DNA of 64,000 nucleotides. Source: Archangium violaceum. Lineage in GTDB: Bacteria > Myxococcota > Myxococcia > Myxococcales > Myxococcaceae. The DNA lies in the NCBI RefSeq assembly GCF_016887565.1, contig NZ_CP069396.1, forward strand, positions 2,073,001 through 2,137,000. The letters are read 5' to 3'. The notes beneath the pieces are model-generated. The model was given only the letters and a program-made list of their open reading frames with translations, was not told where the DNA came from and made no database searches. This document shows, piece after piece, positions 11,000 through 17,152 of the stretch; position 1 is the first letter of the stretch; every line of letters starts with the position of its first letter. The position numbers and the translations under genes are program-made.

Positions 11000-13030
11000 T
11001 CAGCGGGCCGGAGCACACCCGGTCGCGAGCGCCCTGGCCTGCTCCGGGAAGCGGGCCTCCAGTGAACGCTTGACCACCTCGACATCGTCCACCCGGCCCG
11101 CGTGGGCGAGCACCTGACAGAGGGAGACGAGGGCGCGCGGGTCCTTGGGCGCGAGCCGATCCGCCTCGCGGTAGGCCCGCTCGGCGCCGGAGATGTTGTC
11201 CTGACGGAAGAGGACCGCCCCCAGGTAGGAGTGGGCGAGCGCGAGCTCCGGCTCCTTGCGCAGCGCGCGCCGCAGCAGGGAGGCGGCCTCGTCCAGCTTG
11301 TCCTGGCGGTAGCGCACGAAGCCCAGCTCCGCGAGCGCCCGGGCGTCCTCGGCGCGGCGCGTCCAGGCCCCCAGCACCTCCGCGGCCTGGTCGAGCTGGC
11401 CGGTGCTCGACAGCAGCAGGCCGTAGCGCGGGGCCACCCGGGCGTCGCGCGGGTGCTTCTCGTACGCCTGGGCGAGGGCCGAGACGGCCCCGGACACGTC
11501 TCCCTGGCGCTCACGCAGCTCGGCGAGGGCCAGGGACGGGCGGACATCCTTGGGGGAGGCGAGCGCGGTGGCCTGTTCGATGGCGCGCTCGGCGCGGCGG
11601 CCCATGCGCAGCTCGGTGCTGGCACGTGCGGCGAGCAGGTGGGCCTCCACGTCCTGGGGGAAGCGCGCGACGAAGGCCTCGGCGACGTCCAGCGCCTCGG
11701 CGGGAGCGCCCGCGGCGAGCAGCAGCGCGCCGGCCCGGGCGAGCTGGGCCGCGGTGGCGCGCTCGTCCTGCCCGAGTCCCTCGAGGGCGGAGACGCGGGC
11801 CTTGGGGGCGGTGGTGGCCTCGGCGGTGGCGAGTCTCTGCGCGGGGGGAGGAGCCTGACGCAGGACCAGGGTGGCCCCACCCCCGAGGGCGAGCAGTCCC
11901 CCGAGCATCGCCACCACGAGGACGAGCTTCCGCTTCCTCGCGGGCGGCGGTGGGGGGGCCGCCTGCACGGCGGGCGCCTCCTGGGGTGGGGCCAGGGCGG
12001 GCGTGTTCACCGGTTGGCGCGCGGGGGCGTTGGTGGCGGAGGGCTGGGAGGGATCGGCGAGCCGGGCGCTGCGGAGGGCCTGCCGCTTCGGGTCGCTGTC
12101 GAGCGGGAAGAGCGACTCCACATAGTCGGCGACCTGCTCGGGGGAGGCCACCTCGGCGGAGCCGCCCACGCGCGCGATGGCCTCGGTGAAGAGCTGGAGG
12201 CTCTCGAAGCGCTCCTGGGGGTCGCGCGCGAGCGCCGTGAGGCAGATGTGCTCCAGGGCGGGAGGCACGGACGGGTCGAGCTCGGTGGGAGGACGAGGGC
12301 GCTCCGTGGCGATGCGGTGGAGGACGACCTCGGTGCTGGGGCCGGAGAAGGGCCGGCGGCCACAGAGCTGCTCGTAGAGCATCACCCCGGCGGCGAAGAT
12401 GTCGGCGCGGTGGTCCACGGCGTTGCCGATGATCATCTCCGGCGACATGTAGAAGAACTTGCCCTTGAGGGTGCCGGGCTCGGTGCCGGAGCCGATGGAC
12501 TCGGCGCGGGCGATACCGAAGTCGATGACCTTCACCGTGCCGCTGACGCCCACGTGGATGTTGTCGGGGGTGAAGTCGCGGTGGACGATGCGCAGCGGGC
12601 GGCCCTCCTCGTCCACGGCGCGGTGGGCGGCATCGAGCCCCCGGCACGCGTCCACGAGGATGCGCAGGGTGATGCCCAGGGGCACGTGCTGGCCGCGCTC
12701 GGCGGCCGCCTGGCGCACCTCGGCGAAGGAGCGGCCCTCGAGCAGCTCCATGGCGATGAAGGGCTCGTTGCCCTCGACGCCGAGCTCCAGGATGGAGACG
12801 ACGTTGGGGTGCTGTATCTGCGCGGTGATGCGGGCCTCGTTGAGGAACATCTGCACCACGCGCCGGTCGGTGAGCATGTGGGGCAGCAGCCGCTTCACGG
12901 CCACGGCCGGACCACGCGAGCCGTCTTCTTCGATGCGACGTCCAAGATACACCTCGGCCATGCCGCCCGTCGCGATGCGCGAGCTCAGGCGGTAGCGGCC
13001 GAACCAGGAAGGATTGCTGTCGGGAACCAC
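11000..13030 (-). CDS. Eukaryote-like Ser/Thr protein kinase with transmembrane segment and TPR repeats
   Basis: A 676-aa membrane kinase. The N-terminal Hanks-type kinase domain (about 10-285) has a Gly loop ATGGMAEVYLG (21-30), the ATP-binding Lys46 (VAVK), catalytic HRD at 150-152 followed by FTPDN, the DFG motif at 170-172, and an SPE-type activation segment (YMSPEM), so it should be active. A Pro/Ala linker and one transmembrane helix (KLVLVVAMLGGLLALGGG, about 364-386) follow. The extracytoplasmic C-terminal half is built of TPR-like 34-residue repeats (ALAELGFVRYRQDKLDEAA, ALAHSYLGAVLFRQDNISGA). This architecture is common in myxobacteria; the TPR domain may sense or recruit an envelope partner. 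No linked substrate gene is evident. Confidence 0.93.
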   Translation of the reverse strand: MVPDSNPSWFGRYRLSSRIATGGMAEVYLGRRIEEDGSRGPAVAVKRLLPHMLTDRRVVQMFLNEARITAQIQHPNVVSILELGVEGNEPFIAMELLEGRSFAEVRQAAAERGQHVPLGITLRILVDACRGLDAAHRAVDEEGRPLRIVHRDFTPDNIHVGVSGTVKVIDFGIARAESIGSGTEPGTLKGKFFYMSPEMIIGNAVDHRADIFAAGVMLYEQLCGRRPFSGPSTEVVLHRIATERPRPPTELDPSVPPALEHICLTALARDPQERFESLQLFTEAIARVGGSAEVASPEQVADYVESLFPLDSDPKRQALRSARLADPSQPSATNAPARQPVNTPALAPPQEAPAVQAAPPPPPARKRKLVLVVAMLGGLLALGGGATLVLRQAPPPAQRLATAEATTAPKARVSALEGLGQDERATAAQLARAGALLLAAGAPAEALDVAEAFVARFPQDVEAHLLAARASTELRMGRRAERAIEQATALASPKDVRPSLALAELRERQGDVSGAVSALAQAYEKHPRDARVAPRYGLLLSSTGQLDQAAEVLGAWTRRAEDARALAELGFVRYRQDKLDEAASLLRRALRKEPELALAHSYLGAVLFRQDNISGAERAYREADRLAPKDPRALVSLCQVLAHAGRVDDVEVVKRSLEARFPEQARALATGCAPAR

Positions 13031-13052: not shown

Positions 13053-13496
13053 CTAGGCGTCGTGCAAACCGGCCAGGAAGTCGTTGAAGTTGTCAGCGAC
13101 GGGGTAGATGTCCATTTCCACCGTCACCAGGACGATGCTGGGCTCGTCCGGTGAGTCCCTGTAATCGAAGCACAGGTGCTCGCTGCCCGGTGTCATCGCG
13201 AAGGGATAGATACGGGAAGGGATGTGTGGTTGCAAAATACCGTACGAGTCCCTGACGGCGTATGCCCTCTTGTCTGGATCCGAGGTGATGGTCAAGAGAA
13301 CGCTCATCACATCCCTGACCTTGCCAGCGGAGAAGACGCACGGGGTGGGAGTCATCCCTTGATTCGTCGAGACGAGCTTCTTGTACTCCGCGGGAAGCTC
13401 CGCGCTCCATTCCTGCTCCAGGAGGGCGATCTCTCGCGGAGTGGTTGGGCGAGGTGCATCCCAGACATAGGGCTTCCATCGGATGTCTTGTGTCAT
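13053..13496 (-). CDS. SMI1/KNR4-family immunity protein (predicted antitoxin for the adjacent lipoprotein toxin)
   Basis: A 147-aa SMI1/KNR4-fold protein. Typical features are the N-terminal helix with ELPAEYKKLVSTNQG, a central strand region, IYPFAMTPGSEHLCFDYR, and the closing VADNFNDFLAGL helix. Proteins of this fold are the commonest immunity proteins of bacterial polymorphic toxins and bind the toxin tip. Its ATG overlaps the toxin stop codon by 4 nt (13493-13496), which supports a toxin-immunity pair. The base composition is visibly less GC-rich than the neighbouring kinase gene, as expected for a horizontally shuffled tip/immunity unit. Confidence 0.87.
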   Translation of the reverse strand: MTQDIRWKPYVWDAPRPTTPREIALLEQEWSAELPAEYKKLVSTNQGMTPTPCVFSAGKVRDVMSVLLTITSDPDKRAYAVRDSYGILQPHIPSRIYPFAMTPGSEHLCFDYRDSPDEPSIVLVTVEMDIYPVADNFNDFLAGLHDA

Positions 13497-14998
13497 TGAC
13501 CTCCTCCCCAGATGGCCATCCCTCCTGTGTGCGGAGCGGCGAGCTTATGCTCTCCAAGAAGGATGAGCTGCATCCGACCCACATCCTGGTGGTGATGCCA
13601 GGAGTAGCCGCGTGGTGGAACCATTGACGTCGGTAGTTCTGCGATCATTTCGCGAGTGAGCCCGAGTTCCCTGGCCAGAGCGGGCTCTTGCTCGATTGTC
13701 TGGAAGAGCTTCTGGTTTGCCGCCCTGTAGTGCGCGAAGCGGTTTCCACTCCCAATATGGCTGTCATCTAGAATCGTCTCGAACTTTGTCTCGAACCGGG
13801 GGAACCCATCCTTGTCGAAGTGGATGGTGTTCTCGCCATTCGTGACGGTCTGTCCGGCCCGGTTGCGGCCCAGGTTCTGGATGGGCTTGGGCGGGCTCCT
13901 CGTGCCCTTGTAGGGGAGGATCTTCCCGTCCTCGGTGAGCGTGGGCTTCCGCCACGACTCGATGAATTTCAGTCGGTACCTGCCTGGAGCGCTGGCCTGG
14001 GCCGCCTGGCCAGGGGCGGCCTTGTTTCCGCCGCCATTCGTGCCCTGGGAGGCCATGGCCAGGGCGCCTGGGGCCAGCGTCAGGGTGAGGCTGGCCTGTC
14101 CCACCGCCACCTGCCGCACCTGCCCGACCGCCGCCAGCCGCACTCCCAGTTGCAGCTCGGCCGTGACGCCCGCCTGCGCGGCGCCCGGCAGTCCCGGTGG
14201 CCCCATCATCTGGTTCGCCGTGGAGCCCAGGGCCAGCGTCGCCAGCATCACCAGCAGGCGGCCCGCCTGTGCCCCCATCACCCGGCCGAAGCGCTCTCCG
14301 GCCTCACGCACCTCGGTGAAGGTACGAGCCTGCTCCGTCTCCCGCTCCAGCCGTGCCCAGCCCTCCAGCAGGCCCCACACCGTGTCCAGCCCCAGGTACG
14401 CCACCATGAGGCAGGTGAAGGAGAGGGCAGCGGCCTGTGTGACGGGATTGGGAAACACCAGCATCGCCAGGTAGCCGGCCATCGCGGACGTCACCAGGGA
14501 CTGCAGGGCGACCGGGTCCACCATGTCCATCCACACCCCCACCGCTCCCTCCCACACCGAGCCCAGGGAGAGGGTCAGAGCCAGGGTACGCCGTGCCTCG
14601 GGTCCCAGGTAGAGGCCCTTGCCCAGCAGGGACAGGCAGTCGCCCGGAGTGCTCCGGCGCTCGCACCAGCGGTAGTAGCCGTGCGTCAGCGCCGCCCGCG
14701 CGTCCTCCTGTCCGGCCGGTCCCCAGGAGAGGAGCGCCAGCCGCTGCGGGGGAGGGGAGGGCAGGTCCAACCGGACCACCAGCCGGGCCATGGTGGCATC
14801 GAACTGAGCCTGGGTGAGCTCCACCGGGGCCCTGCGCGCGGGGATGAAGGTGCGTGAAGGGCCTTCCTCCGTTTCCAGGTGGAGCTGGATGCGGCTGAGC
14901 GGGTCTCGCGCGGAGGTGGGGACCGCGGCGGCCCGCCCTCCGCCCGTCGCGCACGCGGCCAGCAGCAGGCCCGCCATCACCAGCAGCAGGCGCATCAT
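13493..14998 (-). CDS. SitA-like polymorphic lipoprotein toxin with C-terminal WHH nuclease domain
   Basis: A 501-aa protein with a lipoprotein signal (MMRLLLVMAGLLLAAC, lipidated Cys16). The trunk (about 30-330) has hydrophobic helices (WMDMVDPVALQSLVTSA, AGYLAMLVFPNPVTQAA) and a REAGERFGRVMG helix. The C-terminal ~130 residues are an HNH/EndoVII-superfamily nuclease with the conserved WHHHQD motif near residue 468, MQLIL, and a terminal HTGG. The trunk resembles the SitA5-type toxins of Myxococcus xanthus, which pass between kin cells by TraA/TraB outer-membrane exchange. That assignment is from recollection of the family and is inference. The downstream overlapping SMI1 gene is the likely immunity partner. 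The frame stays open upstream to 16447, antisense to the amidohydrolase gene; 14998 gives the lipoprotein start. Confidence 0.82.
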   Translation of the reverse strand: MMRLLLVMAGLLLAACATGGGRAAAVPTSARDPLSRIQLHLETEEGPSRTFIPARRAPVELTQAQFDATMARLVVRLDLPSPPPQRLALLSWGPAGQEDARAALTHGYYRWCERRSTPGDCLSLLGKGLYLGPEARRTLALTLSLGSVWEGAVGVWMDMVDPVALQSLVTSAMAGYLAMLVFPNPVTQAAALSFTCLMVAYLGLDTVWGLLEGWARLERETEQARTFTEVREAGERFGRVMGAQAGRLLVMLATLALGSTANQMMGPPGLPGAAQAGVTAELQLGVRLAAVGQVRQVAVGQASLTLTLAPGALAMASQGTNGGGNKAAPGQAAQASAPGRYRLKFIESWRKPTLTEDGKILPYKGTRSPPKPIQNLGRNRAGQTVTNGENTIHFDKDGFPRFETKFETILDDSHIGSGNRFAHYRAANQKLFQTIEQEPALARELGLTREMIAELPTSMVPPRGYSWHHHQDVGRMQLILLGEHKLAAPHTGGMAIWGGGQ

Positions 14999-15298: not shown

Positions 15299-16579
15299 GT
15301 GGGCACGCTCCTGAAAGGTGGAATCGTCGTCGAGCTCGAACCCGCGTGTGTCGAGCGGGTCGATCTGCGTATCGAGGGCGAGCGCATCGTGGCCCGGGGC
15401 CCGGATCTGCCGGCGGCGCCGGACGACGAGGTCATCGCGCTCTCGGGCAAGCTGGTCTTCCCCGGGCTGGTGAGCGCGCACCAGCGGCTCCACGCGAGCC
15501 TGGGGCGCGGCATGCCCCGGCCGAAGTTGGACGGCTACCAGGACCTGCTGGAGCAGGTGCGCTGGCGCTATGAGGATGCGCTCGACCTGGACGCGGTGCA
15601 GGTGGCCGCGACCGCGGGTGGCCTCGAAGCGCTCCAGTGCGGCACCACCACGCTCTTCGACCTGCACTCCTCGCCCCAGGCGATTCAAGGCTCGCTGCTG
15701 CGGCTGGGGCGGGGGCTGCACGAGGTGGGCGTGCGCGGGGTGCTCTCCTACGCGGTGACGGACCGCAGGGGCGCGGTGGGGCGCGAGGAGGGGCTGGAGG
15801 AGACGGTGTCCTTCACGCGCAAGGCGCGCGGGCGGCTGCGGGGGCAGGTGGGCGCGGCGCCGCTCTTCACCGTCAGCAATGAGGCCCTGGAGGGGCTGGG
15901 CGAGGCGGTGCGGAGCACCAACACCGGGCTGCACGTGCCGCTGGCGGAGGATCCGCTGGACGAGAAGCTGTCGGTGGAGCGCTATGGCTCCTCGCCGGTG
16001 ACGCGGCTGGTGGAGGGCGGGATGCTGTCGCCACAGGCGCTGCTGGCGTACGTGGGGCACCTGTCCTGGCCGGAGCTGGCGCAGCTGTTGCCCTCGGGCG
16101 CGTGGCTGGCGCACACGCCGCGCTCCAACATGGAGAGCGAGGTGGGGTACGCACCGGCGCTCAAGTTCGGCCACCGGGCCACGCTGGGCGCGGACGGGGT
16201 GAGCGCGGACATGTTCGCCGAGGCCCAGGCGGCCTGGTTGCGCTCGCGCGACGCGGGACAGCCCATCGACGTGCTGCGCTACCTGGCCAACGGGCAGCGC
16301 CTGGCCTCGCAGGTGTTCGGCTCGCAGATGGGGCTGATGCGCGAGGGCTCGGTGGCGGACCTGCTCCTCATGGACTACCAGCCCGCCACGCCGCTGACGG
16401 CGGAGAACCTGGCGTGGCACGTGGTGTTCGGCCTGGGCTCGCGCCACGTGGAGTCGGTGATGGTGGACGGCGTGTGGCGCGTCTGGGCGCGCCGGCCCCT
16501 GTCGGTGAACCCGTCGGTGGTGGCGGAGCAGGCGCGCGAGGCCGCCGCGGCCGTCTGGGCGCGCATGGGCCAGAAGTGA
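15299..16579 (+). CDS. SsnA-like amidohydrolase with a degenerate metal site
   Basis: A 426-aa amidohydrolase-superfamily protein, collinear with E. coli SsnA over its length. It keeps scaffold motifs such as GKLVFPGLVSAH, AHTPRSNMESEVGY, LGADGVSADMF, and the C-terminal ADLLLMDYQPATPL and FGLGSRHVESVMVDGVW. The metal ligands are mostly missing. The first H-x-H is HQR (AHQRLHASLGRG), the second H-x-H is HVP (GLHVPLAED), and the HG..LS His appears to be replaced (AYVGHLS). The late Asp (GADG) is kept. It may therefore be non-hydrolytic or bind metal differently. The start is GTG at 15299, with GGAGGGAC just upstream. The peroxiredoxin gene follows 12 nt downstream. Confidence 0.84.
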   Translation: MGTLLKGGIVVELEPACVERVDLRIEGERIVARGPDLPAAPDDEVIALSGKLVFPGLVSAHQRLHASLGRGMPRPKLDGYQDLLEQVRWRYEDALDLDAVQVAATAGGLEALQCGTTTLFDLHSSPQAIQGSLLRLGRGLHEVGVRGVLSYAVTDRRGAVGREEGLEETVSFTRKARGRLRGQVGAAPLFTVSNEALEGLGEAVRSTNTGLHVPLAEDPLDEKLSVERYGSSPVTRLVEGGMLSPQALLAYVGHLSWPELAQLLPSGAWLAHTPRSNMESEVGYAPALKFGHRATLGADGVSADMFAEAQAAWLRSRDAGQPIDVLRYLANGQRLASQVFGSQMGLMREGSVADLLLMDYQPATPLTAENLAWHVVFGLGSRHVESVMVDGVWRVWARRPLSVNPSVVAEQAREAAAAVWARMGQK

Positions 16580-16591
16580 TAAGCCGCGAGC

Positions 16592-17152
16592 ATGCTCATT
16601 CCCATGCTCGTGGCGGGCCTCCTCGTGGGAGCCACGCCCCAGGTCGGAGAAGTCGCTCCTGAGTTCACGGTGGAGGACACCACCGGCAAGACGTACACGC
16701 TGTCCCAGATGGTGAAGAACGGGCCGGTCATCCTGGCCTTCTTCCCCAAGGCCTTCACCAGCGGGTGCACGCGGGAGCTCACGGCGTACCGCGAGCGGTA
16801 CGCGGACATCGAGAAGCTCAGCGGCCAGGTGCTCGCCGTCAGCATGGACGACAAGGAGACGCTGACGAAGTTCAAGGAGTCGCTGAAGGCGCCGTTCGCG
16901 TTCATCCCGGATCCGGAAGGGAAGCTGGCGAGCCTCTACGACGTGAAGACGTCCGACGAGGCGCGGATGCCGGGAATGAAGTTCGCCAACCGCTTCACGT
17001 TCGTGATTGGCGAGGACGGCAAGGTCCTGAAGGTGGAGTCCGGTAAGGACGCCATCGACCCGACCGAGGCGATCGCGTCCTGCCCGCTGCGCAAGAAGGC
17101 GGACACGGCGAAGGGCTCGGACGCGAAGCAGGCCCAGCCCCAGAAGAAGTAG
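16592..17152 (+). CDS. Peroxiredoxin (AhpC/TSA family), probably exported
   Basis: A 186-aa thioredoxin-fold peroxidase that reduces hydroperoxides through a peroxidatic Cys. The active-site motif is [12 protein letters not shown] (P52, T56, Cys59), matching the PxxxT/SxxC rule of Prx/BCP-like proteins. A second Cys near residue 164 (ASCPL) could serve as resolving Cys, though its position is unusual. The N-terminus [16 protein letters not shown] is hydrophobic and looks like a short signal peptide, suggesting a periplasmic site. The C-terminus is a Lys/Gln/Ala-rich tail. It follows the amidohydrolase gene by 12 nt and probably shares its mRNA. It ends 3 nt before the convergent ppc stop codon. 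Confidence 0.88.

Follow-up and report, generated by a model that had tools for sequence, protein, structure and literature searches.

Deaminases of the TRZ/ATZ type hold a single metal through an HxH motif, a His and an Asp. The amidohydrolase superfamily to which they belong also has members that kept the fold after losing their metal ligands, such as the catalytically dead CRMP/DPYSL proteins, and its pseudoenzymes are known in general.

A further amidohydrolase, SsnA, is described in the available text of two papers as the ring-opening hydrolase of reductive urate degradation (PMC12507026, PMC12990295), acting after YgfK has reduced yanthine (PMC12507026; commentary in PMC12990295). The same text of PMC12507026 reports that neither YgfK nor SsnA alone has detectable activity on yanthine, and terms SsnA a robust marker for uricolytic gene clusters. 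Peroxiredoxins with a TxxU motif, containing Sec, are likewise presented as a known selenoprotein family in the available text of PMC1794560, PMC9312934 and PMC13188914; a table of PMC1794560 lists peroxiredoxins among the selenoproteins of Anaeromyxobacter, and the string ‘Myxococc’ appears in none of the three main texts. Within the titles and abstracts of the open-access literature searched, we found nothing on an SsnA pseudoenzyme, a myxobacterial SsnA or the SsnA-like clade described here, and no printed account of an SsnA clade that degenerated repeatedly and is linked to a (seleno)peroxiredoxin. Here we describe an SsnA-like protein encoded in a 64,000-nucleotide stretch (the window) of the Archangium violaceum genome, which is a single contig of 13.2 Mb.

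Family assignment and active-site residues

The ssnA-like open reading frame starts with GTG, and its orthologues start at the corresponding residue; the closest named ones, from Archangium, are 93 and 91% identical. Amidohydro_1 (PF01979) is the sole Pfam match of the protein at E <= 0.001 (77.6 bits, cut-off 25). Its top NCBIfam matches are the two SsnA models NF005540 (317.8 bits) and TIGR03314 (309.3 bits), with the next family clearly behind at 116 bits. Both scores fall below the respective SsnA cut-offs of 444 and 455.5; the control, E. coli SsnA, reached 709.6 bits for NF005540 and 737.9 bits for TIGR03314. The AlphaFold2 model is a confident barrel (mean pLDDT 91.3, pTM 0.92), and the top Foldseek matches to it are metal-dependent deaminases and chlorohydrolases of the same superfamily, with TM-scores (query length) of 0.85 for isocytosine deaminase 7ww2, 0.85 for MTA/SAH deaminase 4f0r and 0.83 for TM0936 (1p1m). 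The protein is an amidohydrolase closest to SsnA: E. coli SsnA (b2879) represents its best family match over the full length and the same fold class, and common descent is seen in its position on the tree beside intact Myxococcaceae proteins. It differs from SsnA in its replaced zinc-site residues and its scores below cut-off. With the TRZ/ATZ-type deaminases 7ww2, 4f0r and 1p1m it shares the TIM-barrel fold but, set against their familiar ligand set, it lacks two of the four metal ligands. The CRMP/DPYSL proteins differ from it in belonging to the dihydropyrimidinase subfamily and in their animal neuronal role.

Active-site positions were compared in an alignment of 93 rows, comprising the window protein, E. 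coli SsnA (L049) as anchor and 91 other distinct SsnA-like sequences. Before alignment, 25 loci were excluded by hand as fragments (L043, L045, L071 and others), shorter duplicates or other amidohydrolases of the window’s genome, including a degenerate one (L015, the same as L180); 6 exact duplicates were also removed. Six key positions were defined in window numbering, 61, 63, 214, 217, 251 and 299. From TM0936-type and TRZ/ATZ enzymes we take 61, 63, 214 and 299 to be metal ligands and 217 and 251 to be catalytic; these roles combine what is known of those enzymes with conservation, and it is conservation alone that the alignment itself displays. Outside the Myxococcaceae clade the six positions read HHHEHD in 31 of 32 rows. 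The remaining row (L095, genome G155) has Glu at the strand-8 Asp position and reads HHHEHE.

At the same positions the window protein reads HRPEYD (Table 1), so that two of the four expected direct ligands (63 and 214) and the catalytic-type His251 are replaced. His212, the other member of its HxH pair, is retained as it is in intact proteins. The first-pass annotation had read the first HxH as HxR, the second as HxP and a further His as replaced, and the alignment recovers all three, the last as Tyr251 at the strand-6 His in the window protein and L103. Its view that the scaffold and the late Asp are conserved agrees with the confident barrel and with Asp299. Its wording that ‘most’ metal ligands are gone is slightly strong for two of four, although the loss itself stands.

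Table 1. Features of the ssnA-like locus in the window, and residues at the six key positions (61, 63, 214, 217, 251, 299) in the rows compared.
Feature	Coordinates	Strand	Key letters	Evidence
ssnA-like gene, 426 aa, amidohydrolase fold, degenerate zinc site	15299..16579	+	HRPEYD	ORF, profiles, alignment, model
First metal motif HxH = H61-Q62-R63	15479..15487	+		sequence, alignment
HxHxxE motif = H212-V-P214-L-A-E217; Pro in place of the ligand His, Glu retained	15932..15949	+		sequence, alignment
Tyr251, replacing the strand-6 His kept by other crown orthologues	16049..16051	+		sequence, alignment
Asp299, conserved strand-8 Asp	16193..16195	+		sequence, alignment
Peroxiredoxin gene, AhpC/TSA PF00578, 186 aa, conserved downstream partner	16592..17152	+		ORF, profile, neighbourhood
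Peroxidatic Cys59 codon TGC (FTSGC); TGA (Sec) in many orthologues	16766..16768	+		sequence
Crown			HRPEHD or HRPEYD	
L044			DHTEHS	
L096			HEEEHA	
L080 and L087			HHHEQD	
Six rows of the degenerate clade			HHNEQD	
Single rows			HYAEQD, HHTEQD, HQAQHG, HQTEHD, WRSEHD, WQPEQD, HRMEQD	

Losses and constraint across the Myxococcaceae clade

A maximum-likelihood tree was built from 59 of the 93 rows after removal of the six motif columns. Myxococcaceae sequences of the SsnA-like kind form one clade of 39 rows (support 100/99). Within it lies a degenerate subclade of 37 rows (100/99), each without at least one of the six key residues, and the intact L119 and L120 fall just outside this subclade. 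The well-supported crown of the subclade comprises the Archangium, Myxococcus and Corallococcus types, and Arg63 and Pro214 are present in all 20 of its tree rows, as are Glu217 and Asp299, across several genera. Of the 25 named Myxococcaceae loci in which both sites are covered, 24 also have Arg63 and Pro214, and only L044 does not. His is found at 251 in 26 of 26 named Myxococcaceae loci, and Tyr251 only in the window protein and L103, which are 99% identical. To the question raised by the first-pass annotation, whether the substitutions are fixed across myxobacteria, the answer is therefore yes within the crown for Arg63 and Pro214 and no for Tyr251, which is not general. These counts from tree rows and from named and outside-clade rows are independent of any choice of rows by motif. 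Two further sets, of 31 ‘intact’ and 42 ‘crown’ rows, were chosen by motif letters, so that constancy there holds by definition at all six positions in the former and at the first three in the latter; L099 and L133, more distant relatives whose letters are identical, are not among the 31 intact rows.

The sister lineages lost other residues independently. The minimum number of kept/lost changes on the tree is 3 for H61, 4 for H63, 2 for H214, 1 for E217, 5 for H251 and 4 for D299, which gives a total of 19, counted without distinction between loss and regain and with one D299 change belonging to L095 outside the clade. In L080 and L087 all four ligands are still present and position 251 alone is altered, which indicates that the order of loss differed among lineages. 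Eight residue types occur at position 214 among the 17 degenerate rows outside the crown; of the columns invariant in intact rows, only position 191 is more varied (11 types). His212 is lost in 13 of these 17 rows, H61 in 3 and H123 in 3, and some sister lineages also lose Asp299 or Glu217.

The degenerate genes are open and under purifying selection. No stop lies inside the TIGR03314 matches, among the matches listed, and median pairwise dN/dS is 0.157 for the Archangium type (21 pairs), 0.143 for the Myxococcus/Pyxidicoccus type (28 pairs), 0.169 for the Corallococcus type (45 pairs) and 0.173 for the HHNEQD group (15 pairs); the corresponding median for intact SsnA, from three pairs only, is 0.203. 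Together with the confident predicted barrel, these ratios indicate that the fold is kept under selection and the zinc site is not. Change is not confined to the zinc site, since 17 of the 27 other columns invariant in intact rows are also altered in the 17 non-crown degenerate rows, in 5.2 rows on average, the six key sites averaging 6.8. In the crown, 5 of the 6 key positions are constant, but so are 200 of 426 columns overall; the constancy of Arg63 and Pro214 is accordingly unremarkable, and constant key sites, which could mean a maintained new active site, say little either way.

The peroxiredoxin partner and the urate-pathway genes

The peroxiredoxin frame begins 12 nt past the stop codon of the ssnA-like gene, and its product matches PF00578 with 108.2 bits and carries the TxxC/U motif as FTSGC, with Cys59. 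The linkage noticed in the first-pass annotation extends well beyond the window: of 83 genomes that have a clade member (the intact G102 and G107 being counted among them), 75 carry the peroxiredoxin downstream in the same orientation, and in 73 of these 75 it lies at most 300 nt from the end of the SsnA-like match, with a median of 64 nt between match ends. The 83 genomes were taken from among the TIGR03314 matches listed, a peroxiredoxin was required to match at E <= 1e-25, and the count omits fragments, weak members (such as G139 and G071), G155, separate paralogues and the second copies in G156 and G157. In three genomes the peroxiredoxin is elsewhere, namely G060, G108 and G085, in the last of which a contig end truncates the SsnA-like gene. 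No close match at this threshold was found in the other five of the 83, namely G102, whose SsnA is intact, G109, G110, G106, which is 78% complete, and G153, where the locus is at a contig edge. In L119 an intact SsnA adjoins a peroxiredoxin with TGA; the linkage can therefore exist with a complete site, and is older than, or independent of, ligand loss. Conversely, the peroxiredoxin is independent of the SsnA-like gene, as peroxiredoxins of this kind also occur in other families of the order without an SsnA-like neighbour, among the matches listed. At the N-terminus of the peroxiredoxin orthologues is a short hydrophobic stretch that may direct export; if exported, the peroxiredoxin would not directly meet a cytoplasmic SsnA-like protein, and the link would then be one of shared regulation. 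No RNA family reached its gathering score between 13000 and 20000 of the window, around the ssnA-like gene.

From their codons, many peroxiredoxin orthologues are predicted to be selenoproteins; the window’s copy shares the TxxC/U motif of the Sec-containing TxxU family but has Cys and is not one. Among 54 distinct 60-nt stretches starting at the peroxidatic codon, which include three distant peroxiredoxins (L156-L158), 20 have TGA and 34 a Cys codon. An 8-bp stem with at least 7 pairs, at +18 from the first base of the codon, is present in 19 of the 20 TGA stretches against 8 of the 34 Cys stretches, and its loop is GGAC in 14 of those 19. Shuffling gives a mean z of -1.22 for the TGA and +0.16 for the Cys stretches, a descriptive comparison based on mononucleotide shuffles of related sequences. 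Cys copies that keep the TGA-type stem include the window’s own, L021, L140 and L103, where the stem is perhaps a relic of a recent Sec-to-Cys change. The window’s genome has SelB, two tRNA-Sec matches above cut-off and a second peroxiredoxin copy (G000:C1:2408055-2408576; L159:5056-5571), 75% identical and with a TGA inside. Most genomes checked have SelB, and 13 of 15 have a tRNA-Sec above cut-off, although 5 of 14 control genomes pass that cut-off too. G094 (2 contigs, 100% complete) has Cys, no SelB at E <= 1e-60 and no tRNA-Sec above cut-off; G107 (90% complete) has TGA and SelB with no tRNA-Sec above cut-off, and G066 has TGA without a SelB match.

Unlike SsnA in its described setting, the SsnA-like loci have the peroxiredoxin as neighbour, and neither YgfK nor XdhD was found in their flanks; YgfK alone was sought genome-wide. 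A YgfK-profile search of 29 chosen genomes gave matches above cut-off in two, G157 and G107, both with intact SsnA, and an N-terminal-half form in G182, G102, G017, G107, G070 and G150. This search found no full-length or N-terminal-half YgfK in 17 of the 19 degenerate genomes, the window’s included, where the best match (198.7 bits) covers only positions 439-839. The matches in these 17 genomes cover only the later part of the protein, which is probably common to other oxidoreductases. G070 and G150, the remaining two, each carry a further SsnA-like gene that is intact (HHHEHD) and lies on a different contig, where an XdhD-like gene adjoins it and a YgfK-like one is close by. The same kind of intact gene lies beside XdhD in G068, and G105 has an intact SsnA-like paralogue with no XdhD within the 6 kb read; a degenerate copy was shown in neither of these two genomes. 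Because the separate intact paralogues match TIGR03314 only in part and below cut-off, the name SsnA is given to them by motif and context. In G102, which carries the intact L120, YgfK-, YgeW- and YgeY-like genes occur together elsewhere (L166). A clade drawn in by the SsnA profile below its cut-off, without the zinc site and mostly without YgfK, would thus be wrongly counted as uricolytic.

In L164, L165 and L169 an intact SsnA-like paralogue adjoins an XdhD-like gene, and the first two also have a shortened YgfK-like gene close by; these loci, in genomes of the window’s family, are possible reductive urate clusters. None of the eleven TIGR03314 matches in the window’s genome is an intact SsnA. 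The three further full-length matches were considered as candidates and rejected: L178, which other TRZ/ATZ models fit better (386 vs 192 bits), L179, which exceeds the cut-off for 5'-deoxyadenosine deaminase, and L180 (G000:C1:4166468-4167757), for which SsnA is the best model at 124 bits and which is itself degenerate. This second degenerate SsnA-like amidohydrolase reads HHHEYG, keeping the HxH and losing the strand-6 His and the strand-8 Asp. Two strong matches in crown genomes, L170 and L171, read HHHEHD and have only 28% identity to E. coli SsnA.

Explanations for the altered site, and the upstream genes

We consider it probable that the SsnA-like protein is a retained SsnA-family pseudoenzyme with a non-hydrolytic role tied to the putative (seleno)peroxiredoxin operon. 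Its ancestor would have been an ordinary SsnA, probably already adjoining a Sec-containing peroxiredoxin. In Myxococcaceae the urate-pathway role would have been lost or would now fall to a separate paralogue, whereas the copy linked to the peroxiredoxin would have been retained for a task other than hydrolysis. Judging from the residues present, the barrel fold is kept and the mononuclear zinc site needed for hydrolysis could no longer be built; zinc and hydrolytic activity would both have been lost. In the mechanism that we find likeliest, the closed pocket would bind a small ligand or a partner, and the protein would serve as a sensor or scaffold for its putative peroxide-defence operon. 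Our guess is that Arg63 of the crown replaces the positive charge of zinc beside Asp299 and Glu217 and so keeps the pocket folded. A more detailed scenario, in which the SsnA branch in myxobacteria became a zinc-free component of the (seleno)peroxiredoxin system, with the crown Arg in place of the metal, and binds an oxidised purine or related ligand to sense it or pass it to the peroxidase, seems to us rather unlikely as a whole.

The first-pass annotation had proposed a pseudoenzyme, a changed metal or cofactor, or a new reaction; of these, the pseudoenzyme has the strongest support. The new reaction would be that of a metal-independent enzyme, with H61, Arg63, H123, Glu217, Asp299 and the PRSN loop as a rebuilt active site of the crown. 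Such an enzyme has a precedent in LigI, a metal-free member of the amidohydrolase superfamily, and would account for the presence of Arg63, Pro214, Glu217 and Asp299 throughout the crown tree and for the constancy of H123, H272 and N277 in crown rows. Set against it are the drift of the sister lineages at position 214 and at several other key residues, most of these lineages sharing the peroxiredoxin operon all the same, and the replacement in the window protein and L103 of the His251 that their crown relatives keep; on balance we find it doubtful. We give still less credence to the view that the protein still binds a metal, either another metal or through ligands that have moved (H61, H123, H212 and Asp299, for example): H61, H123, H212 and H272 are constant in crown rows, the first by definition in the set chosen by letters, and H254 is invariant in a 19-row alignment, but the non-crown degenerate rows lose H212 in most cases and at times H61 or H123.

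A gene merely decaying toward loss, with no present function, might be expected from the many lineages and many different substitutions, yet the lack of stops among the matches listed, dN/dS near 0.15 in three crown groups and the sister group, the conserved operon and the confident predicted fold make this very improbable. As to ligands present nearby and hidden by misalignment, the first-pass annotation had itself allowed that the His ligands might be shifted by a few residues. The motif blocks are gap-free in many distinct orthologues and intact homologues align through the same blocks, which rules out misaligned His ligands; fixed Arg63 and Pro214 with independent losses in the sisters likewise point to lost zinc hydrolysis rather than to misalignment or an error in the sequence, a combined alternative in favour of which nothing was found and to which we assign almost no weight. 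On the pseudoenzyme reading, the clade offers a natural series in which an active site was lost step by step while the genes stayed under purifying selection, with intact relatives alongside, so that the reason for keeping a dead hydrolase can be tested directly in myxobacteria that are tractable. For the role of the SsnA-like protein, the conserved link to a Sec/Cys peroxiredoxin offers a concrete starting place.

Upstream of the ssnA-like gene, on the minus strand at 13053-14998, are genes for a 501-residue protein that has a colicin-DNase/WHH nuclease domain and, by eye, a lipoprotein-like start, and then for a SUKH/SMI1-KNR4 protein, likely a toxin-immunity pair. The pair lies between a Ser/Thr kinase gene and the ssnA-like gene; L103 and L102 have it too, but it was not found in the remaining loci searched, although for several of these no upstream DNA is present. 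The kinase gene (11000-13030, minus strand), which encodes TPR repeats as well, is oriented away from the ssnA-like gene; many loci of the Myxococcus and Corallococcus types have a similar Ser/Thr kinase gene upstream.
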